Part shown: positions 10,420-42,502 of the stretch, piece after piece
Layout: each line of letters begins with the position of its first letter
Position numbering within the stretch: the stretch's first letter is position 1
From: Endozoicomonas ascidiicola
GTDB taxonomy: Bacteria; Pseudomonadota; Gammaproteobacteria; Pseudomonadales; Endozoicomonadaceae
DNA: 50,254 nt
Direction of reading: 5' to 3'
NCBI RefSeq assembly: GCF_001646945.1
Contig: NZ_LUTV01000001.1
Location: 579,971-630,224 of the forward strand
Made by a program: the position numbers and the translations under genes
Notes under the pieces: generated by a model
What the model saw: only the letters and a program-made list of their open reading frames with translations
The model's database searches: none
What the model was told of the DNA's origin: nothing

Positions 10420-10452
10420 AGCCCTAAAGAAATAGCTGCTTATGAAAGCTAA
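10420..10452 (+). pseudogene. brnT: BrnT toxin C-terminal remnant
   Basis: Only the last ten codons remain: SPKEIAAYES and TAA, overlapping the ATG of the brnA-like copy exactly as in the better copy at 13268. Upstream the sequence is unrelated. This shows that a brnTA pair once stood here and lost nearly all of the toxin. Confidence 0.65.
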
Positions 10453-10863
10453 AGAGTTTGACCAAGCCTTTGATGAAGGCAACGACGCGATTAATGATCA
10501 TATTGATTGATCCAGCGCCCCGGAATGGATAGGTAAAAATCATGAAAGTCTCAGGTATCACTGAGATACAGCGGTATATGTGGCCTATGACTTAATGGTT
10601 GTAAAGTGTGCAATTTGCTTCAACACCACACAACTAAAGGCTTCAAAAATATCAGGCATTTTTCCCCTTGGTATCAAAGAGCCTTAAAGTTAGTAGTCAC
10701 TATTACTGTTAGCTACAGAAAAAATGCAGGCTTTCATGATTTTTCCCTACCGGAATGGATGATTGCCGCTCTTGATCCCGAGGCATTCAGACTGGGTATT
10801 GCCCGGCAGGCAGTGGTTAAAACCAGGCTGACCGAAAAGCTGGATCAGGGAAAGCAGGGCTAA
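10442..10863 (+). pseudogene. brnA: BrnA-like antitoxin copy, nonsense and MITE-disrupted
   Basis: The start MKAKEFDQAFDEGNDAINDH is nearly identical to the intact antitoxin at 13314, but TGA replaces the Trp codon at 10508-10510. The middle part is shorter than in the intact copy, and a 220-bp element (10530-10749) sits before the second half, which resumes as PEWMIAALDPEAFRLGIARQ in frame to a stop at 10861-10863. The CopG-type ribbon-helix-helix is therefore split. The gene is dead as an antitoxin. Confidence 0.8.
10530..10749. mobile_element. MITE with ISAs1-type ends
   Basis: A 220-bp non-coding insert with terminal inverted repeats (TAGGTAAAAATCATGAAAG at 10530-10548; the complement of TAGGGAAAAATCATGAAAG at 10731-10749). 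It is flanked by a perfect 10-bp direct repeat CCGGAATGGA at 10520-10529 and 10750-10759, the target duplication. The end sequence TAGGGAAAAATCATGAA is the same as at the edge of the ISAs1-family transposase remnant at 39555, so a related ISAs1 enzyme probably moved it. It carries no gene. Confidence 0.85.
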
Positions 10864-11925: not shown

Positions 11926-12304
11926 TTTCGATAGCCTCCGCAATTTTTCTGAGAATGTGACCAGTCATAGAGGCTTACTCAGACTTACTGTAAATGGTTA
12001 GCATCCACATTTCGTGATCACTCTTTTTCCAGTAATAAATGACCCTAACACCGCCACTTTTACCTTTCCCTTCTGTGGCCCAACGAACTTTTCGTACTCC
12101 GCCACTACCACGAACAATGTCACCTGAATCAGGCTTTTCCTGTAGATGCCATTGCAACATTCTGTTAATACCCACACCCTTCGCACTGAGCGGAGTCGAA
12201 GTGTGGTGCTTTGATCCTTCGACTCCGCTCAGGATGAACGGGGATGTATGTCTTATAACGCTTGGCTGCACTAGCTTGTCTTTATGAAAGAAGCGACCGG
12301 TCAC
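11918..12304 (-). pseudogene. RelE/HigB2-like toxin, disrupted
   Basis: The core MLQWHLQEKPDSGDIVRGSG and VRKVRWATEGKGKSGGVRVI plus YYWKKSDHEMWMLTIYSKSE is a typical HigB2/RelE mRNase. Three defects are visible: a palindromic repeat (12186-12232) inserted after about residue 20, an in-frame TAA at 11975-11977 before the last helix (TGHILRKIAEAIENE), and a probable lost base near the start, since an ATG at about 12315 lies in another frame. It cannot make a normal toxin. Confidence 0.75.
12186..12232. repeat. Dispersed palindromic repeat inside toxin remnant
   Basis: A perfect 16-bp stem (CTGAGCGGAGTCGAAG and its complement) around a 15-nt loop. The same motif is a common dispersed palindrome in many bacterial genomes. 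Here it extends the toxin reading frame without a stop but adds about 25 foreign residues, so it is an insertion into the gene. Confidence 0.8.
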
Positions 12305-12384
12305 AAACTGAACATCACCTTTTCACCCGCCTGAACAATAGCTGGTAGTATCACTTACCGGCTGAAGGCTGAGCGTCAAGAATC

Positions 12385-12403
12385 AAGATCTGACCCAGGT
12401 TTT
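12385..12403 (-). repeat. Degenerate REP-like unit
   Basis: AAGATCTGACCCAGGTTTT is a diverged reverse-orientation copy of the unit ACCGGGGTCAGGTCTTTC found in clusters near the REP-associated transposases at 39.9-42.5 kb. It lies just downstream of the intact TA pair. Confidence 0.5.
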
Positions 12404-12420
12404 CAACTACCGGTTTTCAA

Positions 12421-12708
12421 CTAAGAATTAAGCTTCGCAGTAATACCAAGCCCCAGCGCCTGCATCACCGTTAGAATAGTTTTCAGCGTTGGATTTCCAT
12501 CTTCACTGAATGAACGGTACAGCTGCTCACGGGAAAGGCCAGTTTGTTTGGCGATGCCTCCCATACCTTCGGCTCTGGCAACCACACCTAATGCTTTAGC
12601 AATATAAGAGGCATCTCCCGTTTCGAAAGCATCTGCCATAAACAGTTCAATGGCTTCCGGGCTGTCAAGGGCTGCAGCCGGATCATAATCATGAATAGAC
12701 TCTGTCAT
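12421..12708 (-). CDS. HI1420-type HTH antitoxin
   Basis: The 95-residue protein has the layout of the addiction-module antitoxin family defined by HI1420: an N-terminal toxin-binding part (DYDPAAALDSPEAIELFMAD) and a C-terminal HTH (MGGIAKQTGLSREQLYRSFS, then NPTLKTILTVMQALGLGI). It should neutralise the upstream toxin and repress the promoter at 13046-13074. It starts 29 bp after the toxin stop. This is the only TA pair between 10 and 19 kb in which I see both genes intact. Confidence 0.88.
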   Translation of the reverse strand: MTESIHDYDPAAALDSPEAIELFMADAFETGDASYIAKALGVVARAEGMGGIAKQTGLSREQLYRSFSEDGNPTLKTILTVMQALGLGITAKLNS

Positions 12709-12737
12709 TGTTTTTTCTCCCTATCTTTCGCAGTAGG

Positions 12738-13037
12738 TCAGTGGTAAGTCCGACAGGCTCCTAGGCGTTTAGCTACCTCAATATCCCGGCTTTGTGTGCT
12801 TTTATCACCACCACACAACAAGATGATAATTTCATTACCTTGTTGCCGGAAGTAAACACGGCAACCCAGACCATAGTGAACTCTTAATTCACTCACGCCC
12901 TGACCTACCGGAGAAACATCACCGGCAAGTCCGTTTGCTAAGCGGAAGATCCGAGCCGCTATGGCCGCTTTTGCTCTGGAATCCTTAAGCTTCCGCTCCC
13001 ACTTGCAGTAGATGTCGGTTTGTTTAATACTGATCAT
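12738..13037 (-). CDS. RelE/ParE-family toxin (HI1419 type)
   Basis: The 99-residue product matches the HI1419 / phage Gp49-like group of the RelE/ParE superfamily: KWERKLKDSRAKAAIAARIF, GDVSPVGQGVSELRVHYGLG, CRVYFRQQGNEIIILLCGGD and KSTQSRDIEVAKRLG. Such toxins are usually mRNA-cleaving or gyrase-directed; which applies here cannot be told. Toxin first, antitoxin second is the normal order of this subfamily. The ATG at 13037 lies eight bases from a good -10 box, so the transcript is probably almost leaderless. Confidence 0.88.
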   Translation of the reverse strand: MISIKQTDIYCKWERKLKDSRAKAAIAARIFRLANGLAGDVSPVGQGVSELRVHYGLGCRVYFRQQGNEIIILLCGGDKSTQSRDIEVAKRLGACRTYH

Positions 13038-13045
13038 AGAGAGAG

Positions 13046-13074
13046 ATTGTAGTTTATAAACTACATACTGGCAA
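13046..13074 (-). promoter_or_regulatory. TA promoter with palindromic operator
   Basis: On the minus strand, TTGCCA (13074-13069) and TACAAT (13051-13046) are spaced by exactly 17 bp, a good sigma-70 promoter. A perfect 18-bp palindrome, TGTAGTTTATAAACTACA (13048-13065), fills the spacer and overlaps the -10 box. This is the expected site for autorepression by the antitoxin. The start of transcription would fall one or two bases before the toxin ATG. Confidence 0.75.
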
Positions 13075-13196
13075 AATTCTCATCTGATCAATTCATCGAG
13101 AGTAACGGCAATACTGTTTTCCTATAACATTTACAGAGCGCCCGATACGGGTAGTGCAAGTATCAGATGGAAATGCTGGGCTTTCGTTGTTGCAAA

Positions 13197-13267
13197 ATGA
13201 AAGACCTGACCTGGCTTTTCCAATACATATTGACTTTATGCACGAAGAAAGACCTGACCCTGGTTTT
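13197..13267 (-). repeat. Two REP-like units abutting the BrnT remnant
   Basis: Units at 13197-13219 and 13239-13267 contain AAAGACCTGACC followed by TGG and a T run, the reverse complement of the repeat found near 39.9-42.5 kb. The second ends exactly where recognisable BrnT coding begins (13268), so the repeat marks the breakpoint of the toxin gene. Confidence 0.65.
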
Positions 13268-13324
13268 CGAATTATTTCGGTACGTCGTTCAAGACCCAAA
13301 GAGATAGCCGCCTATGAAAGCTAA
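13268..13324 (+). pseudogene. brnT: BrnT toxin C-terminal remnant
   Basis: The last 18 codons of a BrnT-type RNase toxin remain, RIISVRRSRPKEIAAYES, matching the conserved end of the family and overlapping the brnA start by the usual few bases. Everything upstream has been replaced by REP-like repeat units. The toxin is absent as a protein. Confidence 0.75.
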
Positions 13325-13541
13325 AGAGTTTGACCAGGCCTTTGATGAAGGCCACGACAGCATTGATGAACATATTGACTGGTCCAGCGCCCAACGCCCT
13401 GGCCTGGAAACCCGCCGAATCAATATCGACTTCCCGGAATGGATGATTGCCGCTCTTGATCGCGAGGCATCCAGACTGGGTATTGCCCGGCAGGCGGTGG
13501 TTAAAACCTGGCTGGCCGAAAAGCTGGACCGTAGACCGTAG
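13314..13541 (+). CDS. brnA: BrnA-like CopG-family antitoxin
   Basis: The protein has the BrnA layout: an N-terminal MKAKEFDQAFDEGHDSIDEH toxin-binding segment and a C-terminal ribbon-helix-helix (RRINIDFPEWMIAALDREAS, RLGIARQAVVKTWLAEKL). It would bind its promoter and BrnT, but the toxin here is only a stub, so it is an orphan. The last three codons and the stop (CGT AGA CCG TAG) fall inside the first units of heptamer array A, so the array has replaced the original 3' end. Confidence 0.85.
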   Translation: MKAKEFDQAFDEGHDSIDEHIDWSSAQRPGLETRRINIDFPEWMIAALDREASRLGIARQAVVKTWLAEKLDRRP

Positions 13542-13733
13542 ACCGTGCTCCGTGCTCCGTGCTCCGTGCTCCGTGCTCCGTGGTCCGTGGTCCGTGGTCC
13601 GTGGTCCGTGGTCCGTGGTCCGTGGTCCGTGGTCCGTAAAAAGCTTGGCTCACTCGCGCTGTCACGGTCAACAGATAACGGCCAACGGATAACGGATAAC
13701 GGATAACGGTCAACGGCTAACGGCTAACGGCCA
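13527..13733. repeat. Heptamer array A (16 + 10 units)
   Basis: Left arm 13527-13638: sixteen 7-bp units, three GACCGTR, five CTCCGTG and eight GTCCGTR. Core 13639-13663 starts AAAAGCTT. Right arm 13664-13733: ten units of form ACGGNNA (ACGGATA, ACGGTCA, ACGGCTA, ACGGCCA, one ACAGATA). Since CCGT and ACGG are complementary the whole is one large imperfect palindrome with 4-bp pairs every 7 bp. It lies between the convergent brnA and WbpM-type genes and supplies both stop codons. It has no spacers and is not a CRISPR array. Confidence 0.95.
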
Positions 13734-15763
13734 ACCTCTACTTCATGCTCAGGTTGTTTATACAACCAATCCACAACCACCGAGCTGGGCTGATACCCAT
13801 TCACATACCGAAGCAACAACTCTCTTGTTACTTTATAGTTATGCCCCTGCAGCGTGCCGGTAATTTCATCCAGCACAGTTTTAAGTGCCTCCCAGGCCAA
13901 AAGCTCTTCATAGGCACGGGAAATTTTAGGATGATCCGTACCGGTAACCGATTCACCAATCAATAACTCTTCATAGAGCTTTTCACCAGGACGGAGGCCA
14001 CTAAAGGTAATCTCAATATCTCCATCCGGAGTCTGATCATCTTTGACCGATAAACCCGAAAGCACAATCATTCGTCGGGCCAGGTCGACAATCTTCACCG
14101 GTTCGCCCATCTCCAATACAAACACATCGCCGCCTGTACCCATGGCGCCAGCCTGAATCACCAGCTGAGCCGCTTCCGGTATGCTCATAAAGTAACGATT
14201 GATTTCCGGATGGGTAACCGTAATCGGGCCACCGGTGCGAATCTGCTCCCGGAAAACTGGGATCACCGAACCACTGGAACCTAAGACATTGCCAAAGCGC
14301 ACCATGGTAAAAATCGTATGATTACTGACCTTATCTCCTGCCTGATAACCAAATAAAGATGGATGATACAGAGAGATAGACGACTCCTGACTCAGCGCCT
14401 GTAAAACCATTTCTGCCAAACGTTTGGAAGCACCCATTACGTTAGTGGGGCGAACCGCTTTATCGGTAGAAATCAGAACAAAATTCTTAACTTCTGCGAC
14501 AATGGCCGCCTGAGCGGTATACAGCGTACCCAGTACATTATTACGCAAACCCTGAGAGACATTGTGCTGAACAATCGGCACGTGTTTATAGGCGGCGGCA
14601 TGGTAAAGTGTATCGACACTATAGGTGCGCATAACGTCAACCATTCGACCAGGGTCGTTAATAGAGCCAAGCAGCGTGACTACTTGCACCGAAAGACCTT
14701 TTAAACGAATAGTCCGCTGCACCTCCTGATCAATGGCGTAGAGATTAAACTCGCTGTGTTCAAACAAAATCAGCATTTTGGGCAAACGTAGTAGCGCCTG
14801 ACGCACCATCTCGGAGCCTATTGAACCACCAGCGCCCGTCACCATCACCACTTTATTGGCGATGTGCAGATCGATCAATTCAGGAATGGGTTGCACTTCT
14901 TCCCGCCCCAGAACATCCGCAATATCAACAGCCTGAATCTCCTGAATTTTCAACCGACCGCTCGCCAGATCGCTCATCCCCGGCATGGTCTTTACCGGCA
15001 AACCGGTGGTTTCGAGCTTTCGTAAAATGCTCGCTCTTTCTGAACGACTTAACGAAGGAATCGCCAACAACACTTCTTCAGCGCCAGTTTCGCTGATTAC
15101 CTGGTTCAAACTTGGCTCAGAGAGGTAAACCCGCTTACCCACAATCACCCGACCACTGAGGGCTTCGCTGTCATCCAGAAAACCCACGGGGCGATATTCC
15201 CGGGATTTGTTCAGTGCCTCCGCAAGCTGCACACCGGCTTCTCCAGCACCATAAATTAATACCGGAATACCATTCTTATCGTGCTGCTTTTTCTGCACCA
15301 CCTCTGGCTGCAGGGAAAGAAGAATCTGCCCAATATCTTTCAGGTTATAACCCTTGAGCCATTGTCGGGCACCATATCGAGTCAGGCCTAACAACAAACC
15401 AGAAAAGCAACAGTAAAGCACCGTTACCCCTCTGGGAATATTGCCAATATTTAACAAATAAAAGCCTGCCATCATCGCCAGCACTGCAATCAGCGTTGCC
15501 TTAAGAATGGTCAGTAATACCTGATGACTCATATAACGCAGCACGGCCCGGTAAAGCCCAAAGCGAATATAAATCGGTAAAGAAACGGCAGGTGCCACCC
15601 AAACCAGCATAAAGAAAGTGGCCTGATAGCGTTGAATAAATTCATCCCACCCCAGTCGCACAGAAAATGCTAATACCAGAGCCACCCATATAGAAAGTGT
15701 ATCCAGCGCCAGGGTGATGATGCGTTTTTTATATCTCGGGAGGGAGAGGAGTTGGTTTCTCAT
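13724..15763 (-). CDS. WbpM/CapD-type nucleotide-sugar 4,6-dehydratase
   Basis: The 679-residue protein has four N-terminal membrane helices (residues about 15-145), a first Rossmann-like domain (VLIYGAGEAGVQLAEAL) and a C-terminal SDR domain with VMVTGAGGSIGSEMVRQALL, HAAAYKHVPI and the catalytic-region LISTDKAVRPTNVMGASKRL. This is the full architecture of WbpM/PglF-like enzymes, which convert UDP-GlcNAc to the 4-keto-6-deoxy sugar for O-antigen or capsule initiation. It probably works with the sugar transferase at 20944 and the aminotransferase at 16994. Its last codons and TAG stop fall within heptamer array A, and array B starts ten bases upstream of its ATG. Confidence 0.93.
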   Translation of the reverse strand: MRNQLLSLPRYKKRIITLALDTLSIWVALVLAFSVRLGWDEFIQRYQATFFMLVWVAPAVSLPIYIRFGLYRAVLRYMSHQVLLTILKATLIAVLAMMAGFYLLNIGNIPRGVTVLYCCFSGLLLGLTRYGARQWLKGYNLKDIGQILLSLQPEVVQKKQHDKNGIPVLIYGAGEAGVQLAEALNKSREYRPVGFLDDSEALSGRVIVGKRVYLSEPSLNQVISETGAEEVLLAIPSLSRSERASILRKLETTGLPVKTMPGMSDLASGRLKIQEIQAVDIADVLGREEVQPIPELIDLHIANKVVMVTGAGGSIGSEMVRQALLRLPKMLILFEHSEFNLYAIDQEVQRTIRLKGLSVQVVTLLGSINDPGRMVDVMRTYSVDTLYHAAAYKHVPIVQHNVSQGLRNNVLGTLYTAQAAIVAEVKNFVLISTDKAVRPTNVMGASKRLAEMVLQALSQESSISLYHPSLFGYQAGDKVSNHTIFTMVRFGNVLGSSGSVIPVFREQIRTGGPITVTHPEINRYFMSIPEAAQLVIQAGAMGTGGDVFVLEMGEPVKIVDLARRMIVLSGLSVKDDQTPDGDIEITFSGLRPGEKLYEELLIGESVTGTDHPKISRAYEELLAWEALKTVLDEITGTLQGHNYKVTRELLLRYVNGYQPSSVVVDWLYKQPEHEVEVGR

Positions 15764-15772
15764 TGATAGGCG

Positions 15773-15851
15773 TTTTCCGTTTTCCGTTTTCCGTTTTCCG
15801 TTTTCCGTTTTCCGAAAGCTTTTACGGCCAACGGATAACGGACAACGGCAA
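15773..15851. repeat. Heptamer array B (6 + 4 units)
   Basis: Six perfect TTTTCCG units (15773-15814), core AAAGCTTTT (15815-15823), then ACGGCCA, ACGGATA, ACGGACA and ACGGCAA (15824-15851). The core with its flanks is identical to array C over 32 bp. It lies between the divergent WbpM-type gene and the S23 gene. The reading frame through it is open into the S23 gene, encoding a 7-residue repeat, but this is unlikely to be translated. Confidence 0.95.
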
Positions 15852-15900
15852 ACGAATCATTTCTAGTCTAAAATTCGTGGTTTTAAATAAGAATGAGAAA

Positions 15901-16242
15901 ATGACGTTTGAAAATCTCGATGTATGGAAACGATCATCCCGGCTGAGTGTCAGCATCTACAAAGAACTGGCTGGGCTGAAAGATTATGGCTTTAAAGACC
16001 AGATCACCCGTGCCTCCCTATCCATCCCGAGCAATATTGCCGAAGGGTTGGAAAGGGAATCTCACAAAGAAAAACGTCATTTCCTAAGTATCGCCCGTGG
16101 CTCAGCCGCAGAGCTGAGAACTCAAATCTATATTGGTATCGAGATAGGTTACATCAACAAAGACATTGGGAAGCTTTGGATCGAAACCGTAAAAAACATC
16201 TCTGCCATGTTGCAGGGGTTGATCAATTCCATTCGGAATTGA
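15901..16242 (+). CDS. S23/Avd-like four-helix-bundle protein
   Basis: The 113-residue protein is a clear four-helix-bundle (23S rRNA intervening-sequence, S23) family member: FENLDVWKRSSRLSVSIYKE, YGFKDQITRASLSIPSNIAE, GLERESHKEKRHFLSIARGS, AAELRTQIYIGIEIGY. Relatives are encoded in intervening sequences of 23S rRNA genes, and Avd, the accessory factor of diversity-generating retroelements, has the same fold; the family is basic, pentameric and thought to bind nucleic acid. Here it sits alone between arrays B and C; its TGA is the first three bases of array C. ATG 15901 is chosen on homology. It is the only protein in this cassette. Confidence 0.9.
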   Translation: MTFENLDVWKRSSRLSVSIYKELAGLKDYGFKDQITRASLSIPSNIAEGLERESHKEKRHFLSIARGSAAELRTQIYIGIEIGYINKDIGKLWIETVKNISAMLQGLINSIRN

Positions 16243-16332
16243 TCCGTTTTCCGTTTTCCGTTGGCCGTGATCCGAAAGCTTTTACGGCCAACGGATAACG
16301 GATAACGGATAACGGATAACGGATAACGGACA
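16240..16332. repeat. Heptamer array C (5 + 7 units)
   Basis: Left units TGATCCG, TTTTCCG twice, TTGGCCG, TGATCCG (16240-16274); core AAAGCTTTT (16275-16283); right units ACGGCCA, five ACGGATA and ACGGACA (16284-16332). The first unit contains the S23 stop codon, and the last unit runs directly into the remnant of a higB-like toxin gene. Core plus adjacent units match array B over 32 bp. Confidence 0.95.
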
Positions 16333-16439
16333 TCAGCATTATCTACTTCATAAGCCAGAAGCTCTTTGTAAAACACATTGTTGATCATAAAGCCTACGAT
16401 GAAATCACCAAGCGCTGCCGTAAAGGAGGAAGCCTGTGA
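16333..16439 (+). pseudogene. higB: HigB-like toxin C-terminal remnant
   Basis: After array C an open frame reads ISIIYFISQKLFVKHIVDHK, AYDEITKRCRKGGSL and TGA at 16437-16439, overlapping the higA start by GTGA. HVxxHxxYD near the end is typical of HigB toxins that cleave ribosome-bound mRNA. The N-terminal two thirds are missing and replaced by the array, so the gene is dead. Confidence 0.7.
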
Positions 16440-16888
16440 GCATGCACGATACAAAAAGCATGGTTGAATTAACCCGGCGATTTCATCATTTATTGGAAGC
16501 TGCACCTTTTCTGGAAGGTATCAATAGCGAAAGTGATTATGAACAGGCTCTTAAGGCCACAGAAGCGCTGTGCAAAAGTATTGGAGACAACCCGAATGAC
16601 CCTCGGAATCTCCTACTGGACATGATCACCCAGAAAATAGAACGCTATGAATACCAAACAGACCCTGTTCTTTCACAGTGGGATAAACAAGATGGCACCA
16701 TTGCCCTGCTCAAAGTATTAATGCGCCAGCATAATCTGACGCAGTCCGATCTGCCAGAAATCGGCAGCCAGGGAGTAGTGTCGGAAGTTCTAAACGGCAA
16801 GCGACCATTGAACCTGCGGCAGATACAGAATCTGGCTGAACGGTTTGGGTTGCCGGTAACGTTATTTTTTGAGCATGGAACGCACTGA
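16436..16888 (+). CDS. higA: HigA-family antitoxin
   Basis: The 150-residue protein has the long N-terminal region of this HigA subgroup (ELTRRFHHLLEAAPFLEGIN, SESDYEQALKATEALCK) and a C-terminal helix-turn-helix (LKVLMRQHNLTQSDLPEIGS, VVSEVLNGKRPLNLRQIQNL). GTG 16436 is chosen because AGGAGG lies six bases upstream and it overlaps the toxin stop; ATG 16442 is further from the site. The toxin partner is truncated, so it is an orphan antitoxin or regulator. It converges with the DegT-type gene, with array D in between. Confidence 0.85.
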   Translation: MSMHDTKSMVELTRRFHHLLEAAPFLEGINSESDYEQALKATEALCKSIGDNPNDPRNLLLDMITQKIERYEYQTDPVLSQWDKQDGTIALLKVLMRQHNLTQSDLPEIGSQGVVSEVLNGKRPLNLRQIQNLAERFGLPVTLFFEHGTH

Positions 16889-16966
16889 TTGTTGCATCAT
16901 TCATATTCTGTCTTTATATAAACGAAAAGTAGTGTTGAATGAACTCGTGCCATACCAGACGCAAGT

Positions 16967-17010
16967 TGTTCCGTGTTCCAAAAGCTTTAACGGTCAACGG
17001 TCAACGGCCT
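16967..17010. repeat. Heptamer array D (2 + 3 units)
   Basis: Short member: TGTTCCG, TGTTCCA (16967-16980), core AAAGCTTTA (16981-16989), ACGGTCA twice and ACGGCCT (16990-17010). The right arm encodes the last residues and the TGA (16994-16996) of the DegT-type gene on the minus strand. Confidence 0.9.
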
Positions 17011-18172
17011 CTCCCATAACCTCCTGAACAACCTCACAAGTCTTAGAAATCTCATCCTGAGTTAACGTCGGGTGAACCAGAAACATCAAACTGGTATCGC
17101 CTAACTCTCTGGCTATAGGTAAACGTTCTTCAGGGCGAAAACCGGAATGATCAAAAGCTTTTTCCAGATAAATTTCTGAACAGGAACCCTGGTAACAAGG
17201 TACACCCGAACCATTAATTTCATCCACAATTCGATCTCGGCTCCAACCTTCTTTCAGCATTTCAGGGCGTACAAACACATAATGTTTATAGCAGGCATGT
17301 TCTATTGATTCGGGAACCTCAGGAATACGTAACGCTGTAATCGTACGACAAACTTCTGTTATTGCAGCTGCATTGGCCTGACGCTTTCGAGTCCATTCCG
17401 GCATTCGCCGTAACTGAATTCTGCCAATGGCTGATTGCATTTCGGTTATGCGCCAGTTAGTACCAAATTCATTGTGTAGCCAGCGAAATCCACGAGGGTG
17501 TTCAGTGTTATAAACTGAGTCATAACATTTACCATGATCTTTAAAAGACCACATCGCTTTCCACAGCACTTCATCATTAGTGGTGACCATACCGCCTTCA
17601 CCGCCGGTGGTCATAATCTTATCCTGACAAAACGACCATGCACCAATATGGCCAATACTGCCTACCGGACGACCTTTGTATTTTGCACCATGAGCCTGGG
17701 CACAGTCTTCAATGACAAAAAGATTATTCTTTTCAGACAATGCCATGATCGGGTCCATATCACAGGGTAAACCGGCGAGGTGAACACAGATAATAGCTTT
17801 GGTATGTTCCGTTAACACTGCAGCAATCGTGTCGGCAGTGATATTCTGGGAATCCCGATCCACTTCAGCAAACACCGGCTTTGCTCCGGAGTTAACAATA
17901 CTACTGGCAGAAGCAAGAAAGGTACGAGGAGTAACAACCACCTCATCACCCGTCCCTATTCCGAGAGCATGAAGCGCCAAATCCAACGCCAATGTTCCGT
18001 TTGCCAGCGCAATGGCATGTTCGGTACCGCAGTATTCAGCAAACTCTTTCTCAAACTCGCGGCTTTCGGTGCCCGTCCAGTAATTGACTTTATTAGACAG
18101 TAATACACGGCTGACGGCATCGGCTTCTTCCTGAGTGAAAGAAGGCCAGGGGAAGAACGGAGTGTTTAGCAT
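16994..18172 (-). CDS. DegT/DnrJ/EryC1/StrS-type sugar aminotransferase
   Basis: A 392-residue fold-type I PLP enzyme: YWTGTESREFEKEFAEYCGT near the start, VIEDCAQAHGA with the Asp that contacts PLP, and WSFCQDKIMTTGGEGGMV with the Schiff-base Lys. Such enzymes aminate a keto sugar nucleotide, a natural next step after the WbpM-type dehydratase, from which it is separated by the S23 and higBA passengers. The extreme C-terminus (AVDR and stop) comes from array D. Substrate is inferred from context. Confidence 0.9.
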   Translation of the reverse strand: MLNTPFFPWPSFTQEEADAVSRVLLSNKVNYWTGTESREFEKEFAEYCGTEHAIALANGTLALDLALHALGIGTGDEVVVTPRTFLASASSIVNSGAKPVFAEVDRDSQNITADTIAAVLTEHTKAIICVHLAGLPCDMDPIMALSEKNNLFVIEDCAQAHGAKYKGRPVGSIGHIGAWSFCQDKIMTTGGEGGMVTTNDEVLWKAMWSFKDHGKCYDSVYNTEHPRGFRWLHNEFGTNWRITEMQSAIGRIQLRRMPEWTRKRQANAAAITEVCRTITALRIPEVPESIEHACYKHYVFVRPEMLKEGWSRDRIVDEINGSGVPCYQGSCSEIYLEKAFDHSGFRPEERLPIARELGDTSLMFLVHPTLTQDEISKTCEVVQEVMGEAVDR

Positions 18173-18208
18173 GGTTGATTTAAGTGCTTATTGAATGTGA
18201 TTGGAATG

Positions 18209-18282
18209 TTGTCCGCTTTCCGAAGTCCGTTGTCCGAAAAATACAAGAAAATGCATGTTCGAAAGGCGGACAACGGCAAGCG
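18209..18282. repeat. Heptamer array E, degenerate
   Basis: Left arm TTGTCCG, CTTTCCG, AAGTCCG, TTGTCCG (18209-18236). The core is longer than in A-D and starts AAAAATACAAGAAAATGCAT; the right arm is CGGACAACGGCAAGCG (18267-18282). The core resembles that of array F on the other side of hicAB. It lies between the divergent DegT-type gene and hicA. Confidence 0.8.
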
Positions 18283-18383
18283 ACTAAAACTGAACTACAT
18301 TGACCGTTTCCCATACGAATGCAACCATTTGATATTGCAATAGTGTGTATGGTGTGTATGTTTAAACAGGGCGAAGCCAGTAC

Positions 18384-18580
18384 ATGAAAAGCTCAGATAT
18401 CATAAAAGCTCTGGAAAGCCACGGGTGGTATTTGGTGCGAATACGAGGGAGTCATCACCATTTCAAACACCAAAACATTCCAGGGCTGGTGACAGTGCCG
18501 CACCAAAGCATGAAATACCGAAAGGCACACTGAAGAGCATTCTTAAACAGGCTCAAATAAAAGACCTATTAAAGCACTGA
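18384..18580 (+). pseudogene. hicA: HicA toxin, one-base frameshift
   Basis: The frame MKSSDIIKALESHGWYLVRI, RGSHHHFKHQNIPGLVTVPH is a HicA RNase with the catalytic His in GSHHHF. At 18501-18504 one C is missing, so the ending P-KHEIPKGTLKSILKQAQIK-DLLKH lies in the next frame and ends in TGA at 18580. The untranslated half contains the conserved toxin helix. HicA degrades mRNA and is held by HicB; this copy should be inactive unless the shift is a sequencing error. Confidence 0.85.
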
Positions 18581-18592
18581 AGGGGAAAGAAA

Positions 18593-18997
18593 ATGCGATA
18601 TCCGATTGTTCTGCATACTGATGATAATGTTCACTATGGTGCGACCGTTCCCGATATCCCCGGTTGCTTTTCAGCAGGAGAAGGCATTGACGAAACACTT
18701 GCACACGTTGAAGATGCCATTGCCGGTCATTTGGAAATACTATGTGAAAGCCAATCCACTATTCCTGAAGCGGGCAAGATTTCGGAGCACCAATCAAACC
18801 CAGACTATGCCAATGGCATTTGGGCATTTGTGGATATCGACATTACCCCTTATCTCGGAAAAGCAGAAAGAGTTAATATCACTCTGCCACAGTACCTGCT
18901 ATATCGAATAGACGAAATGGTTAAGACTCATCCTGCCTACCGCTCTCGTTCTGCTTTTCTGCAGGATGCAGCGTTGGATAAAATGCGCGATTTGTAA
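18593..18997 (+). CDS. hicB: HicB antitoxin
   Basis: The 134-residue protein has the HicB partial RNase-H-like fold (MRYPIVLHTDDNVHYGATVP, DIPGCFSAGEGIDETLAHVE) and a C-terminal ribbon-helix-helix (RVNITLPQYLLYRIDEMVKT). It neutralises HicA and represses the operon. A good ribosome site, AAGGGGAAAG, precedes ATG 18593, 13 bp after the hicA end. With hicA frameshifted it is probably an orphan repressor. Confidence 0.92.
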   Translation: MRYPIVLHTDDNVHYGATVPDIPGCFSAGEGIDETLAHVEDAIAGHLEILCESQSTIPEAGKISEHQSNPDYANGIWAFVDIDITPYLGKAERVNITLPQYLLYRIDEMVKTHPAYRSRSAFLQDAALDKMRDL

Positions 18998-19186
18998 CTT
19001 ACGAAGCCACGCATCCTGCGTGCACTTTCGGCAGATACTCTGTTCTCTTTATGCTTCCGCATCAGTCCAGCTATAAAGGCTTTACAGTTATTTAAAGCAT
19101 TTACCGCAACATGTCTGAATCAAACCAAAATCTTCGCGGCATTATCTCTTCGAATTTTGTAATTTTCTGCATTCATTGCAATTCAG

Positions 19187-19263
19187 TTTCCATTGCAGTC
19201 CGTTTCCGAAAAAGACAAGAAAGCGCTTTTAGAGGTTACGGACAGCGGATCATGGAAAACGGC
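19187..19263. repeat. Degenerate heptamer-like array F
   Basis: An imperfect palindrome with TTTCCAT and GTCCGT on the left (19187-19203) and ACGGAC and ATGGAAA on the right (19238-19258), core containing AAAGCGCTTTT. It keeps the CCGT...ACGG polarity, and its core ACAAGAAAG resembles array E. It lies between convergent hicB and the HAD gene, touching the HAD stop codon. The rest of 18998-19186 shows no gene. Confidence 0.6.
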
Positions 19264-19265
19264 TG

Positions 19266-19940
19266 TTAAGATGCCTCAAGCAGGCCTAGAGTTTCACTCA
19301 AACCTGTTACTTGAAATTGTGCCTCATATTGAGGTTCAACAGCTAAAGTACGGTACTCTCCATTATCAGAGACTAACTGAATGGTTTTCCAACCAAGGCG
19401 ATTAGGCGTAACAAAGTCTTTCACCGGATTATCTGCAATATAAACACACTCAGGAGATTTTACCTTTAGAACATTCTCTGTAGCGACAAAAGGCTTTTCA
19501 TGAGGTTTCCAATAATCTCTACCAAACTCATCGGTCACACAGATAAAATCGAAGTAGCGGCTAATCCTCAATGCTTCAATTTTATTCCTCTGGGCAGCCG
19601 TGTAACCGTCAGTGATCAGTGCTGTTTGATAATGTTGTGAGAAATACTCCAGCACCTTTGTAGTTTCTGTATCAAGCTGAATAGCTGGTTTGTGATTTCT
19701 ATATACCTCAATAAGCTCTTTTATCAGTTTATCCTGATAAGAAAAAGCCAGACAGTCCAGAGCTTCATTAAAGATTTTACCCCGATGACCATCAGTAAAT
19801 AGACGGGTGGCTATTTCATAGAAACCATCAATTTTATAGTTTACAGCTAAATACTGATCAACCGCTTTAAAACCACTATCAACATAAGTATGTTCTGGAT
19901 AAAGGGTATCATCCAAATCAAAAACAACCGCTTTAATCAA
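19266..19940 (-). CDS. HAD-superfamily phosphatase
   Basis: All HAD motifs are present: VVFDLDDTLYPE (residues 5-16, nucleophile Asp and the acid Asp), LITDGYT (motif II), a Lys in RNKIEAL and VYIADNPVKDF (motif IV acids). Its ATG overlaps the TGA of the ATP-grasp gene (ATGA), so the two act together. In polysaccharide loci such pairs make or modify a sugar nucleotide or a side group; the substrate is not visible. Confidence 0.88.
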   Translation of the reverse strand: MIKAVVFDLDDTLYPEHTYVDSGFKAVDQYLAVNYKIDGFYEIATRLFTDGHRGKIFNEALDCLAFSYQDKLIKELIEVYRNHKPAIQLDTETTKVLEYFSQHYQTALITDGYTAAQRNKIEALRISRYFDFICVTDEFGRDYWKPHEKPFVATENVLKVKSPECVYIADNPVKDFVTPNRLGWKTIQLVSDNGEYRTLAVEPQYEAQFQVTGLSETLGLLEAS

Positions 19941-20920
19941 CGGATATCCTCTCCTCTGACAATAATTTCATCGTCATAGCGCAACATAGCCAAGTCATCC
20001 TGCCAGCAATCCTGCGTCGCCTCACAAGGCTGACCGGTAAGCTCCTGGATAATCCACTTTGGAAAATCAGCACCAGCATGAAGGCTGAGTGGATGACCGC
20101 CACCAAATCGTGGATTGATTTCGATAAAACATATCCGGCCGTCAGGCTGTTTAAAGCACTGAACGGTCATACAGCCCACCGCATGAGGCAGTTTCTCTAC
20201 AACATTAGTCACTGCCGATATAATTTCGGGATCATTGACGGTTAACCCTTTACTCACCTCACCCGCTCTTGTTTCTAACCGTTTTCGAGGAACAACGCAG
20301 CGAACTTTACCGCTGAAATCCACATAAGCATCGCAGGTATATTCATCCCCCTGAATATATTCCTGCACAATAGCATTTTTGACATGGTGCTTAAAAAAAG
20401 TCAGTTCTTCTAAGCTGTTAACTTTGTTGACACCGATGCTGCAACTTCCATCCCAGGGCTTAATCAGTAAAGGAAAGTCGGAGTCTTTTAACTTATTAAT
20501 ATCAGATTCAGAAAGTACTCTGGGGGTATCGATGCTGTTTTCAGTAAAAAACTTCCAAGTATTATTTTTATCGAAACAGATATTATTGGTAGCCGATTCA
20601 CAGACTAACACTTCCGTTCCTATGGTCCTGAACGTATCTTTATGCTGTGAAAGCAGTGTCAGGTCGGTATCGATAAGAGACACTAGCAAGCGAATCTTAA
20701 ACGTTTCACAAATAGATATTAACTGTGGAATATAATCAGGCGATGAGACTCTTGGCACTTGTAACCGTTGATCAGCAATAAAAGATGCCGGAGCTGATTT
20801 TCCTGCATCAGCCGCATAAACTGTACCGCTGATATTCAATTCATCAAGTGTTTTTCTGAAATGGCGTATTAATGAGACACGCCGACCTGCTGCAGCAAAC
20901 AGGATATTAAATTCGGTCAT
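19937..20920 (-). CDS. ATP-grasp ligase
   Basis: The 327-residue protein has an N-terminal pre-ATP-grasp fold (NILFAAAGRRVSLIRHFRKT) and the ATP-grasp domain: PLLIKPWDGSCSIGVNKV, QEYIQGDEYTCDAYVD and FIEINPRFGGGHPLSLHAG with metal-binding Glu and Asn. ATP-grasp enzymes join a carboxylate to an amine or thiol through an acyl-phosphate. Carbamoyl-phosphate-synthase-like members are common in O-antigen loci and may add an amino acid or acyl group to a sugar. Coupled to the HAD gene downstream. Substrate unknown. Confidence 0.87.
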   Translation of the reverse strand: MTEFNILFAAAGRRVSLIRHFRKTLDELNISGTVYAADAGKSAPASFIADQRLQVPRVSSPDYIPQLISICETFKIRLLVSLIDTDLTLLSQHKDTFRTIGTEVLVCESATNNICFDKNNTWKFFTENSIDTPRVLSESDINKLKDSDFPLLIKPWDGSCSIGVNKVNSLEELTFFKHHVKNAIVQEYIQGDEYTCDAYVDFSGKVRCVVPRKRLETRAGEVSKGLTVNDPEIISAVTNVVEKLPHAVGCMTVQCFKQPDGRICFIEINPRFGGGHPLSLHAGADFPKWIIQELTGQPCEATQDCWQDDLAMLRYDDEIIVRGEDIR

Positions 20921-31686: not shown

Positions 31687-32567
31687 CATTCTTTACCGTA
31701 TTGAACCGTTTGTTGTAATGCGGTAGAAAGTTTAAATTTTGGCTGCCATCCACGTTCTATTAGTTTTTTTATTTCAGCTCTGGACTCCATGATCTCATTT
31801 TGTCGGTAAGGATAAGCAGAAAAATCAAGAACACTTCTAGACCCTGTAATGGCATGCACAGTTTCAACAAACTCTCGTATTGAAATTGCTTCACCAGAAC
31901 CCAACTCAAAATCTTCAAAACTTTCTAATTCATTACTTTCAAGCAATAGCTGGTAAGCTGAAACCACGTCACCTATATAGATAAAATCTCTTTTTTGCTC
32001 ACCCGCTGTAAGTTTTATGACGGGAACATTATTCAAACAACTATTAATGATATAGGTAGTAAACTTTGACTCATCATCACCGGGGCCATACATATGTTCC
32101 AGCTTTATATTGCAGAACTTTATCTTGTCCTGTTTGGAAAACTGTTTACCCCATTCAACAAACTGCTTTTTTGACAGCGCATAGCTGTTCAGATATTTAT
32201 ACAGTATTGTGTCGGTGTTAAAGAATGTGTCGGTGTTAAAGAATGTGTCGGTGTTAAAGAATGTGGCTTTTTCTAACAAGTCAAGAGGGTATTTTAAATT
32301 AGCAGCAAAAATTTCTGCTTCTGTTTCGCCATTTCTGCCATAGCAAGTTGCCGTATGCACTACCGCTTTATAAGGGTTATTTTCTTCAAATGCTTTTTCA
32401 AGGCCATCTTCAGTGTAGTGAAATACCAACTTATCTTCGTAGCCTTCCAGACGGTTCAGTTTTGAGGTTTTGCGAATAAGTGCATGAACTTCATGCCCTG
32501 AGTTTACAAAAGCTTTGGCTAAATGGCTGCCAAGAAAACCGCTGGCTCCGGTAAGTAATATCTTCAT
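31686..32567 (-). CDS. rfbS: CDP-paratose synthase-like reductase (RfbS/RfbJ family)
   Basis: An extended SDR: LLTGASGFLGSHLAKAF binds NADPH; NSYALSKKQFVEWGK holds the catalytic Tyr and Lys; CNIKLEHMYGPGDDESKFTT and GSGEAISIREFVETV match RfbS/RfbJ. These enzymes reduce CDP-3,6-dideoxy-4-keto-glucose to CDP-paratose or CDP-abequose; the adjacent rfbE argues for paratose. The active-site Ser/Thr region TFFNTDT is expanded to three tandem hexapeptides by an 18-bp repeat (32209-32262), adding twelve residues before ILYKYLNSYALSK. The frame is kept, but activity may be changed. Confidence 0.85.
   Translation of the reverse strand: MKILLTGASGFLGSHLAKAFVNSGHEVHALIRKTSKLNRLEGYEDKLVFHYTEDGLEKAFEENNPYKAVVHTATCYGRNGETEAEIFAANLKYPLDLLEKATFFNTDTFFNTDTFFNTDTILYKYLNSYALSKKQFVEWGKQFSKQDKIKFCNIKLEHMYGPGDDESKFTTYIINSCLNNVPVIKLTAGEQKRDFIYIGDVVSAYQLLLESNELESFEDFELGSGEAISIREFVETVHAITGSRSVLDFSAYPYRQNEIMESRAEIKKLIERGWQPKFKLSTALQQTVQYGKE
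32209..32262 (-). repeat. 18-bp tandem repeat, 3 copies, in rfbS-like gene
   Basis: Three perfect copies of an 18-bp unit, each encoding FFNTDT on the minus strand. The unit is a multiple of three, so copy changes keep the frame. It sits in the catalytic part of the reductase just before the Tyr-x3-Lys motif. Confidence 0.95.
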
Positions 32568-39554: not shown

Positions 39555-39893
39555 TAGGGAAAAATCATGAAGCCCCGCACCCTACGAGGACTTCAGAAAG
39601 ATATTCAGTGTTCATAGCAGCCTTTTTCATCTTCCGCTTTAAGCCTGCTTTGAATGTTTTAGTATTGTTCAACATATTAACGGCCATATGTCGAAAGCCA
39701 GAGAGCATTTCAGCGGCATTGCCTCTTCTGATTCGACAATCATCTTCACGCATTGCAACGTCCATTTTCCAGTGGAGCTTATTTTCAATGGCCCAGTGCT
39801 CTCTTGCAGCATGTGCAAATTCTTCGGCGGTTAATTCTGCAGAAGATATATAATAACGAACACTAATATCGTCAACGTTAAATGTATCAAAAA
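39555..39893 (-). pseudogene. ISAs1-family transposase, C-terminal remnant with IS end
   Basis: Minus-strand reading gives [40 protein letters not shown] and [20 protein letters not shown], the conserved C-terminal third of ISAs1 DDE transposases with the final catalytic Glu (AIENKLHW). The frame ends with TGA at 39565. The IS end TAGGGAAAAATCATGAA begins at 39555. The 5' part is missing, cut off by REP-like repeats at 39889. The IS end equals those of the MITE at 10530. Confidence 0.88.
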
Positions 39894-39968
39894 ACCGGGG
39901 TCAAGTCTTTCATCGTGCACACAGAAACCGGGGTCACAGAAACCGGGGTCAGGTCTTTCATCGTGCAT
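39889..39968 (+). repeat. REP-like unit cluster (copy 1)
   Basis: Three units of ACCGGGGTCA, two followed by GTCTTTCATCGTGCA. This is the repeat associated with the REP-associated transposases in this region. It truncates the ISAs1 remnant on its left. A second copy of the whole cluster lies at 40255-40334 as part of the tandem duplication. Confidence 0.85.
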
Positions 39969-40016
39969 ATTCATTGTCGTGTATTTGAAAAAATGAGCCT
40001 GTTGCAAAACAGATGC

Positions 40017-40250
40017 TCAGTCTTGTCTATTCAATTTATCAATTAAACCCTGAACACTGCTCGCTAATGCGGGCAAATCATTCTGAATGGTTTGCCAGAC
40101 AATGGGTAGGTCAACTTTAAAGTAGCCGTGAGCCAGAGAATTTCTCATTTCATAGGCATAAATAAAAGGTACATCGTTGTGATCTTTAACAAATTGAGGA
40201 AAGTGCTTATCCACGTTGTGACTTGCTTCACCAATAATTTCAAGGTTCCG
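40017..40250 (-). pseudogene. hepT: hepT, truncated duplicate
   Basis: Only the C-terminal half of HepT is present (IRNLEIIGEASHNVDKHFPQ to the end), including the Rx4HxY motif RNSLAHGY. It differs from the full copy by one residue (ALASSVQG for ALANSVQG), so the duplication is young. Its frame reads upstream into REP-like repeats. Confidence 0.88.
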
Positions 40251-40254
40251 GATA

Positions 40255-40334
40255 AAAAAACCGGGGTCAAGTCTTTCATCGTGCACACAGAAACCGGGGT
40301 CACAGAAACCGGGGTCAGGTCTTTCATCGTGCAT
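40255..40334 (+). repeat. REP-like unit cluster (copy 2)
   Basis: Same three-unit cluster as at 39889-39968, here forming the break within the truncated hepT copy. Confidence 0.85.
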
Positions 40335-40382
40335 ATTCATTGTCGTGTATTTGAAAAAATGAGCCTGTTGCAAAACAGATGC

Positions 40383-40757
40383 TCAGTCTTGTCTATTCAA
40401 TTTATCAATTAAACCCTGAACACTGTTCGCTAATGCGGGCAAATCATTCTGAATGGTTTGCCAGACAATGGGTAGGTCAACTTTAAAGTAGCCGTGAGCC
40501 AGAGAATTTCTCATTTCATAGGCATAAATAAAAGGTACATCGTTGTGATCTTTAACAAATTGAGGAAAGTGCTTATCCACGTTGTGACTTGCTTCACCAA
40601 TAATTTCAAGGTTCCGGATAACGGCATCCTGAATAAGTGTGTTTTCGTAAAAATCTTGCTCACTCTTTAATTTAGAGATGTACTCTTGTATTCGCTCAAC
40701 TGCCTCAACGATGTGAGAAAGATACTCCACCAGCCTCAGTGCATTTTTCCGTTTCAT
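40383..40757 (-). CDS. hepT: HepT toxin (HEPN/DUF86 RNase)
   Basis: The 124-residue HEPN protein carries the Rx4HxY motif RNSLAHGY near residue 83 and ends QGLIDKLNRQD. HepT is the RNase-like toxin of the HepT-MntA type VII system, inactivated by AMP transfer from MntA. The start codon overlaps the mntA stop (ATGA). Both genes look intact. Its 3' half is duplicated downstream. Confidence 0.92.
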   Translation of the reverse strand: MKRKNALRLVEYLSHIVEAVERIQEYISKLKSEQDFYENTLIQDAVIRNLEIIGEASHNVDKHFPQFVKDHNDVPFIYAYEMRNSLAHGYFKVDLPIVWQTIQNDLPALANSVQGLIDKLNRQD

Positions 40758-42450: not shown

Positions 42451-42502
42451 AAAAACCGGGGTCAGGTCTTTAAAAACCGGGGTCAGGTCTTTCATCGTGC
42501 AT
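42451..42502 (+). repeat. REP-like unit pair
   Basis: Two units, AAACCGGGGTCAGGTCTTT and a second copy extended by CATCGTGCAT, just before the small membrane-protein gene and intact transposase. Confidence 0.88.

Follow-up and report, generated by a model that had tools for sequence, protein, structure and literature searches.

Palindromic mobile elements with variable heptamer arms in Endozoicomonas and a broader association of heptamer arrays with four-helix-bundle genes

Repetitive extragenic palindromes (REPs) and bacterial interspersed mosaic elements (BIMEs), which go together with REP-associated tyrosine transposases (RAYTs), are short dispersed intergenic palindromes, the REPs being 20-40 bp long. 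Here we describe six bipartite arrays of 7-bp units in a 50,254-nucleotide stretch of the Endozoicomonas ascidiicola genome (contig NZ_LUTV01000001.1, positions 579,971 to 630,224; this whole stretch is called the window) and the repeat family to which they belong. This family also consists of dispersed intergenic palindromes, but it differs from REPs and BIMEs in its heptamer arms, its length of 150-200 bp, its terminal inverted repeats (TIRs) and a target duplication.

Three described systems come closer. The BrickBuilt miniature inverted-repeat transposable element (MITE) of Porphyromonas gingivalis contains a variable-number tandem repeat and is present in 19 copies in one genome (PMC4596501). 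It resembles the Endozoicomonas family as an intergenic MITE with a variable internal tandem repeat, a limited host range and no transposase inside; it carries one direct array of 23-nt units, whereas the Endozoicomonas family has two inverted 7-bp arrays around a hairpin core, and by this description the two are set apart (PMC4596501). In two Xanthomonas genomes, GGGAATC heptamers form 70 and 75 convergent inverted pairs (PMC4692102). These are likewise variable heptamer arrays, many of them intergenic, with convergent pairs; the unit is G-rich and quadruplex-forming, and the available text reports no general association with mobile elements and, unlike for the Endozoicomonas family, describes no shared core or transposon ends (PMC4692102). 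The intervening sequence (IVS) in the 23S ribosomal RNA (rRNA) of Coxiella carries heptamers in variable number ahead of S23p, and RNase III has a site at the first of them (PMC4990558). It resembles one unit of the window in having a four-helix-bundle open reading frame (ORF) within an inverted-repeat stem, with heptamers upstream (PMC4990558). The 23S IVS is located in rRNA, whereas the window unit, which contains a PF05635 gene, lies outside it.

The sequence-only reading of the window had named no repeat class of this form. This held in the narrow sense, as no paper on a CCGT/ACGG heptamer-palindrome family was found among the literature matches listed; however, the kind is known from the MITE with a minisatellite in P. 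gingivalis and from the convergent heptamers of Xanthomonas.

A dispersed palindromic family with transposon ends

The window arrays are members of a mobile palindromic family present in several Endozoicomonas genomes. The pattern CCGTNNNCCGN{7,35}CGGNNNACGG gave 45 forward matches in the E. ascidiicola genome (G000), including overlapping ones in long arms, and 0 matches for the reversed control, showing that the arrays are not confined to the window, as the first reading had proposed to check. Merging the bipartite matches with a looser scan yielded 28 places besides the six window sites, three being weak or having a single arm, so that the family occupies about 34 places in this genome. Endozoicomonas sp. 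4-162 (G011) had 75 bipartite matches against 1 for the control. A second pattern, with 44 matches forward, 42 in reverse and 0 for the control, detected 49 distinct places there, although two or three of them look like unrelated sequence. The other ten congeners had 1-8 matches with controls of 0-4; by their listed sequences, G002-G007, G009 and G010 had family-like cores, whereas G001 and G008 had none. The 44 genomes from other genera of the same family or order gave 0-2 matches with controls of 0-7, and among 274 genomes of the class only G000 matched a stricter core pattern.

The usual core of the family is a hairpin, AAAAGC-n(12-14)-GCTTTT. We collected 59 elements with a core of 20-30 nt, 17 from G000 and 42 from G011, and assigned each to the nearer of two common types, type A (TAAAAGC-CTTGCTGCTTGT-GCTTTTA) and type B (NAAAAGC-GCGAGTGGCTCCA-GCTTTTT), although 14 of the 59 matched below 0.7 and fitted neither well. 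A third type, TAAAAG-AAAAGACTAAAG-CTTTTA, and its relatives were common in other congeners. The arms of the 59 elements averaged 3.6 units on the left and 3.3 on the right, with maxima of 9 and 10, and the 16-unit arm of window site 1 was the longest in the array scans of G000, G011 and the congeners. Viral contigs had 0 canonical core matches (a phage collection was not searched). In plasmid records, a type A copy found only a 32-bp partial match in one record and a type B copy found none. A phage or plasmid carrier was rejected on these counts.

BLAST comparison of G000 and G011 loci revealed a dispersed repeat longer than the array itself, 150-223 bp in the rows shown, with dozens of copies. 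Around 31 of the 59 elements we identified a miniature transposon of about 150-200 bp with the ends GGAACTGTC/GACAGTTCC. With up to 2 mismatches allowed within 80 bp, TIRs were called at both ends of these 31 elements, at one end of 22 and at neither end of 6, while shuffled 9-base probes gave both ends in 0.7 of 59 on average (20 for one shuffle). The one-sided matches may include chance ones. The 3-bp flanks were identical in 17 of the 31 two-ended elements, among which there are at least two orthologous pairs, compared to 7.2 after shuffling (maximum 15-16 in 20000 shuffles). The duplicated triplets were commonly TAA and TTA, and also TAG, ATA and TTG. One clean empty site was found: the G011 element at L244 lies between two TTA triplets, and the corresponding G000 locus (L416) has a single TTA. 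A further candidate empty site, at L191:5128 of G000, was withdrawn after alignment, repeat remnants being present. The family thus has the marks of a MITE, that is, terminal inverted repeats, a target site duplication, and a short, non-coding, multi-copy body with an empty site. The array family is probably a palindromic mobile element with variable heptamer arms, akin to a MITE with a minisatellite. In this way the past of an orphan repeat can be read as that of a mobile element, from features open to measurement: ends, target duplication, empty site and heptamer arms.

Several observations weigh against this reading. MITE ends on both sides were found at 0 of the 6 window sites, where at most one match with 2 mismatches, near the chance level, stood on one side of sites 1 and 5; the sequence-only reading had allowed for a known MITE class as a contrary outcome, and this applies to many family members, which do lie in a MITE, and not to the window copies. 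The clean empty site is the only one. Of the other four aligned loci, one turned out to hold no array, in two the right flank had been replaced, and at L235/L421 the G000 locus carried an unrelated stretch of similar length. No autonomous element was detected: the end matches, 16 in G000 and 50 in G011, included no inward-facing pair spaced 1-3 kb, although divergent ends would escape this search. The totals of 2-8 in several of G002-G007, G009 and G010 are near the control level of 0-4. Finally, CCGTNNN arrays of at least 5 units without the family core formed at least 115 stretches in other phyla, and some of these are bipartite with the same polarity, so that the arms alone are not genus-specific; bipartite arrays of this unit outside the genus were few, and both polarities were seen.

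The six window arrays and the dynamics of their arms

Re-reading and counting at the six loci bore out the presence of heptamer arrays, in each of which a core separates CCG units to its left from CGG units to its right, both recurring every 7 bp. In agreement with the earlier reading, 6 of 6 sites were convergent, running from a CCGT arm through the core to an ACGG arm. Site 1 (13529-13730) has 16 CCG units, the type-B-like core TAAAAAGCTTGGCTCACTCGCGCTGTCA and a right arm of 8 contiguous CGG units. Site 2 (about 15771-15850), which starts about 7 bp upstream of the start codon of a pglF-like gene, consists of (TTTTCCG)6, the core AAAGCTTTT and an ACGG arm (6+4 units), and site 3 (16244-16330), with its onset 1 bp past the stop codon of a four-helix-bundle gene, has 5 CCG units and 7 CGG units around the same core, which is a shortened form. 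Site 4 (16969-17007) is short, with a core around AAAGCTTTAA. Site 5 (18213-18276), upstream of a DegT-like gene, is degenerate (4+2), and site 6 (about 19198-19250) is weak (about 2+2) with the core AAAAAGACAAGAAAGCGCTTTTA; by eye, the cores of these two sites are like the third core type. In the array count the bounds of sites 2, 3 and 6 lay slightly further in, at 15777-15848, 16244-16329 and about 19198-19248. The earlier arm lengths of 6+4 and 5+7 were recovered, whereas 16+10 at site 1 is obtained only when a degenerate unit is counted (otherwise 16+8), and 2+3 at site 4 by reading became 1+3 in the exact script count.

AAGCTT had been proposed as the shared core. It was read in 4 of the 6 cores (sites 1-4) and is absent from sites 5 and 6. 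As a family hallmark it was rejected, since it is a product of shortened or variant cores, the usual form being X-AAAAGC-n12..14-GCTTTT-X'. The large imperfect palindrome claimed for these arrays was supported by RNA folds, with z of -5.6 at site 2, -7.7 at site 3, and -8.3 and -6.4 in two type A copies; one type B copy reached only -2.0. The sole Rfam match up to E 1 in window positions 12000-20000 was mir-9209, at 25.5 bits against a gathering score of 90, and no rRNA matched. A known Rfam RNA was rejected, because no covariance-model match exceeded the gathering score in that interval. No attC-like boxes of an integron were noticed by eye; no integrase search was made.

Eight locus pairs were aligned between species, six of them at arrays. 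Five of the six orthologous array loci differed by heptamer steps of 7-28 bp around a nearly constant core (14; 28 and 7 less a core base; 21 and 7; 7 and 28; and 7 bp). The sixth (L177/L261), between two same-direction genes, was unchanged in length; by eye, this array (L177:3965-4037) lies between atpD-like and atpC-like genes and is nearly unchanged in the two species. Another array (L174:3979-4023) is located beside a DnaA-box-like TTATCCACA, perhaps near an origin (by eye).

Adjacent units within an arm were identical in 46 of 97 cases on the left and 36 of 83 on the right, compared to 18.4 and 14.9 in shuffles; the uniform variable triplets of the first reading therefore hold in part only, in a set that does not contain the window sites. 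The innermost left and right units were exact complements in 14 of 52 cases against 7.9 after shuffling (p 0.005), but their mean identity was not raised (0.688 vs 0.663, p 0.13, with orthologues kept in the set). Nothing was seen of left-right pairing of the variable parts deeper than the innermost unit, and a general pairing of the variable triplets was rejected, the signal being confined to that unit. Support for templated pairing between arms is accordingly weak, with the exact complements for it and the mean identity and deeper units against it. Local expansion of the arms, as suggested from the sequence, is supported by the heptamer-step indels at five of the six orthologous loci and by the homogenisation within arms, and the expected difference in unit number between relatives was found at the same five loci. 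As identity is high within arms and left-right pairing is limited to the innermost unit, each arm evolves mainly alone.

Four-helix-bundle genes and competing origins of the arrays

Between sites 2 and 3, a gene at 15901..16242 on the plus strand encodes a four-helix-bundle protein (23S rRNA intervening-sequence protein, IVP; PF05635, TIGR02436; PF05635 E 4.3e-33). It is the only PF05635 match in G000. Site 2 faces it with the ACGG arm and site 3 with the CCGT arm. By eye, these two inner arms complement each other almost fully, and a strong fold (z -10) was obtained for the RNA of 15773-16332. A relative of the protein has a solved structure (2gsc, XCC0516). We know of no established function for the PF05635 family; presumably the S23/IVP protein is kin to Avd and binds nucleic acid.

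PF05635 was present in 77 of 369 genomes of the class. We analyzed 69 loci from 55 of these genomes, nine of which gave two or more loci, together with the window (70 loci); the set combines 29 loci with 40 more of the listed places, and weak, fragmentary members are under-sampled. A period-7 array was found within 350 bp of the gene at 54 of 70 loci, on both sides at 33, and there was none within this distance at 16. Among the 33 two-sided loci, 27 had arrays that are reverse complements (shuffle mean 2.2, maximum 8 in 2000) and 3 had direct ones, and 22 of the 27 inverted pairs were G-rich upstream. The heptamer unit differed from locus to locus (L266-L334). Strict heptamer arrays anywhere in the locus occurred at 50 of 69 PF05635 loci, 0 of 29 HicA loci and 0 of 30 PF13366 (PDDEXK_3) loci, while strict arrays of other periods occurred at 0-7 of the 69. 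Loose, period-scaled thresholds near the gene gave 31, 16, 56 and 3 of 70 loci for periods 5, 6, 7 and 8; because short periods also score in this way, we relied on the strict counts and the inverted pairing. The loose controls gave 1 of 24 HicA loci (five near contig ends were left out) and 1 of 30 PDDEXK_3 loci (with a gene start at 1501 assumed for every locus). PDDEXK_3/GxxExxY genes as a second heptamer-flanked family were thus not supported, either strictly or loosely.

Only 1 of the 70 loci was near 23S rRNA by BLAST. In G006, five identical-scoring copies (L370, L374, L377, L380 and L382) lie as IVSs with heptad stems inside 23S rRNA, which was identified by eye; the window unit is not inside 23S rRNA, having protein genes as flanks and no rRNA Rfam match in 12000-20000. 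Within Endozoicomonas, 13 of 16 PF05635 loci had an array, and 8 of the 10 two-sided ones were inverted. A gene with a window-like unit was also observed in a distant phylum, a Calditrichaeota four-helix-bundle gene between CCG and ACGG heptamer arms (L115:1600-2141), and a 1.5-Mb genome (G379) had eleven weak PF05635 matches, several with identical scores. No general report linking PF05635 genes with heptamer arrays was found in the open-licence literature. The regularity offers a way into a protein family whose structure is solved, and it allows the excess of heptamer repeats in bacteria to be tested. We regard it as a separate and broader lead, of which the window is one example, and as more interesting than the array family. 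It is kept apart from the CCGT arrays because G011 is rich in arrays without a PF05635 gene and because congener genes carry other heptamers.

The association nevertheless provides the most serious alternative for the window, in which the protein or its RNA needs inverted heptamer arms, the arrays are the arms of an IVS-like element around the S23/IVP gene, and the lone arrays are gene-free derivatives of it, in the way that REPs relate to RAYTs. The arrays at 54 of 70 loci, the 27 inverted pairs among 33, the strict counts against the HicA and PF13366 controls, the same arrangement and strong fold in the window, and the five G006 copies with heptad stems all speak for it, as does the variable heptamer number of the Coxiella IVS (PMC4990558). 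However, G011 has the most CCGT arrays (75 matches) and no PF05635 gene, and the PF05635 arms of other congeners have different units, AGCTTAC and CAGTTGA. Lone arrays with the same unit are also not general. Distant arrays shared the unit of the PF05635 arms in 13 of 22 cases, but in 400 kb of G139 (L459-L478) the 19 heptamer arrays had mostly different units (periods 5, 6 and 7 gave 18, 20 and 19 arrays), and the 200 kb read of G191 had heptamer arrays only at the PF05635 gene; the evidence for arms drawn from resident arrays is mixed in the same way. With 16 loci lacking an array within 350 bp, and with periods 5 and 6 also scoring near the gene under loose thresholds, we consider this origin unlikely. 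A wider version appears somewhat less probable again. In it, four-helix-bundle genes mark a widespread class of free-standing IVS-like elements with inverted heptamer arms of locus-specific sequence; the element, or its nucleic-acid-binding protein together with a host enzyme, would build these arms by copying 7 nt repeatedly, and the CCGT arrays would be descendants without the gene that a transposon spread later.

The preferred reading, a palindromic mobile element with variable arms, also has to be compared with two simpler ones. Bidirectional terminators, or RNA hairpins of another kind at gene ends, in which repeats are present by coincidence, would suit the predicted hairpins, which were strong in 4 of 5 folded arrays, and the avoidance of divergent gaps by the 28 outside places (11 convergent, 16 tandem and 1 divergent, counted from mechanical ORFs). 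Yet a terminator scan gave 7 candidates against 7.0 expected, with 0 stems in an array, and intrinsic terminators were rejected on this result; in the candidate at 16221-16244, the stem falls in the end of the four-helix-bundle gene, and only the T run reaches into an array, namely the first unit of site 3. Moreover, 2 of the 6 window sites lie in divergent gaps, and the L177 array between same-direction genes is nearly unchanged in two species. This explanation is therefore very improbable. Ordinary simple-sequence repeats grown by slippage and paired convergently by chance are the least credible origin of all. The stretches of CCGTNNN arrays in many phyla, many of them plain tandem, fit such growth, but the 59 elements whose arms converge on a hairpin core (a form required by that search) and the 45 matches against 0 in the control do not, and the transposon ends and the empty site refute it for the TIR-bearing copies.

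Array borders in the pgl-like cluster

Between 13.5 and 19.3 kb of the window, plus-strand accessory genes alternate with minus-strand pgl-like or sugar genes, with an array at every boundary. The minus-strand genes are a pglF-like nucleotide-sugar dehydratase (13724..15763; Polysacc_synt_2, gene name by eye) and a DegT/PglE-like aminotransferase (16994..18172, by family matches). The array-bounded modules are the four-helix-bundle gene, a truncated HigB-HigA pair and HicAB, all on the plus strand. The HigB-like frame (16332..16436; HigB name by eye) is a C-terminal remnant of about 30 residues, cut at the edge of site 3 in comparison with a longer G005 frame. It is followed by a HigA-like helix-turn-helix gene (16436..16888; HTH_3 at 22.4 bits, just under the 23-bit cut-off) with homologues in G003, G004, G005, G009 and G010. 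A HicA-like gene with one in-frame stop and a HicB-like gene form the pair at 18384..18997.

In G011, pglC-, pglD-, DegT- and pglF-like genes (pglC and pglD named by eye) are consecutive without arrays; the DegT-pglF gap is about 310 bp and the pglD-like ORF stands directly before DegT, whereas the same junctions in G000 hold array-flanked modules. In G002, DegT and pglF are separated by an array without a module. The array upstream of DegT, site 5 in the window, is at the same place in G000, G002, G005 and G009, and its other neighbour is HicAB in G000, a 127-aa ORF in G002 and HigB-HigA in both G005 and G009. Homology to the HigA region begins 3-7 bp past the last unit of site 3 in G005, G009 and G010, and 32 bp past it in G003. 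Outside the window, we scanned 20 neighbour proteins of G000 arrays, 18 from a list of 56 and 2 in addition to it. Beside the bare arrays L179 and L181 there were a PIN-domain gene, a HigBA-like pair and a HepT/MNT-like pair, and the remaining neighbours were other genes or had no match.

We read the bare arrays as exchange borders because neighbours change at a conserved array, homology breaks at site 3, and toxin-antitoxin genes lie by bare arrays. The proposed history would run as follows. The arrays would be the variable arms of Endozoicomonas palindromic elements of the form (CCGTNNN)n - hairpin core - (NNNACGG)m. After insertion, the arms may have grown and shrunk by heptamer steps through slippage or unequal exchange, each arm being homogenised separately. 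Copies without MITE ends, such as those of the window, would be decayed or recombined descendants of MITE copies that persist as repeat borders. Such bare arrays may then have served as exchange points, recombination at which would have moved modules, so that toxin-antitoxin pairs and the four-helix-bundle gene entered or were swapped between pgl-like genes. The repeat borders are places in a surface-polysaccharide-like gene cluster at which species differ in their small modules, toxin-antitoxin pairs among them. The exchange step is weakened by how seldom toxin-antitoxin-like genes lie beside arrays outside the window, since the scan of 20 neighbour proteins turned up only 3 such arrays. The gene gain could also be due to two kinds of accessory DNA that both settled in gaps tolerant of insertion, and the order of events is not fixed, as G007 and G011 differ from G000 in many ways.

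Before site 1, a small plus-strand ORF (13314..13541), antitoxin- or CopG-like by eye, has its stop codon inside the array; an overlapping ORF (13447-13692) had no family match. Copies of window positions 13268-13528 occur at 93-97% identity elsewhere in G000, G010 and G011. For the small ORF, partial decayed copies were observed upstream at 10440-10860 and a 96% identical copy on contig C24 of G000. Several congeners have short matches to the stretch at about 13236-13270, which perhaps belongs to another repeat family. A dispersed motif around GGGGTCAGGTCTTTC, together with a tandem 366-bp duplication, was noted at 39889-40621, 42451-42492 and about 13190-13270, and a perfect 18-bp tandem repeat of 3.2 copies is located at 32208-32265.

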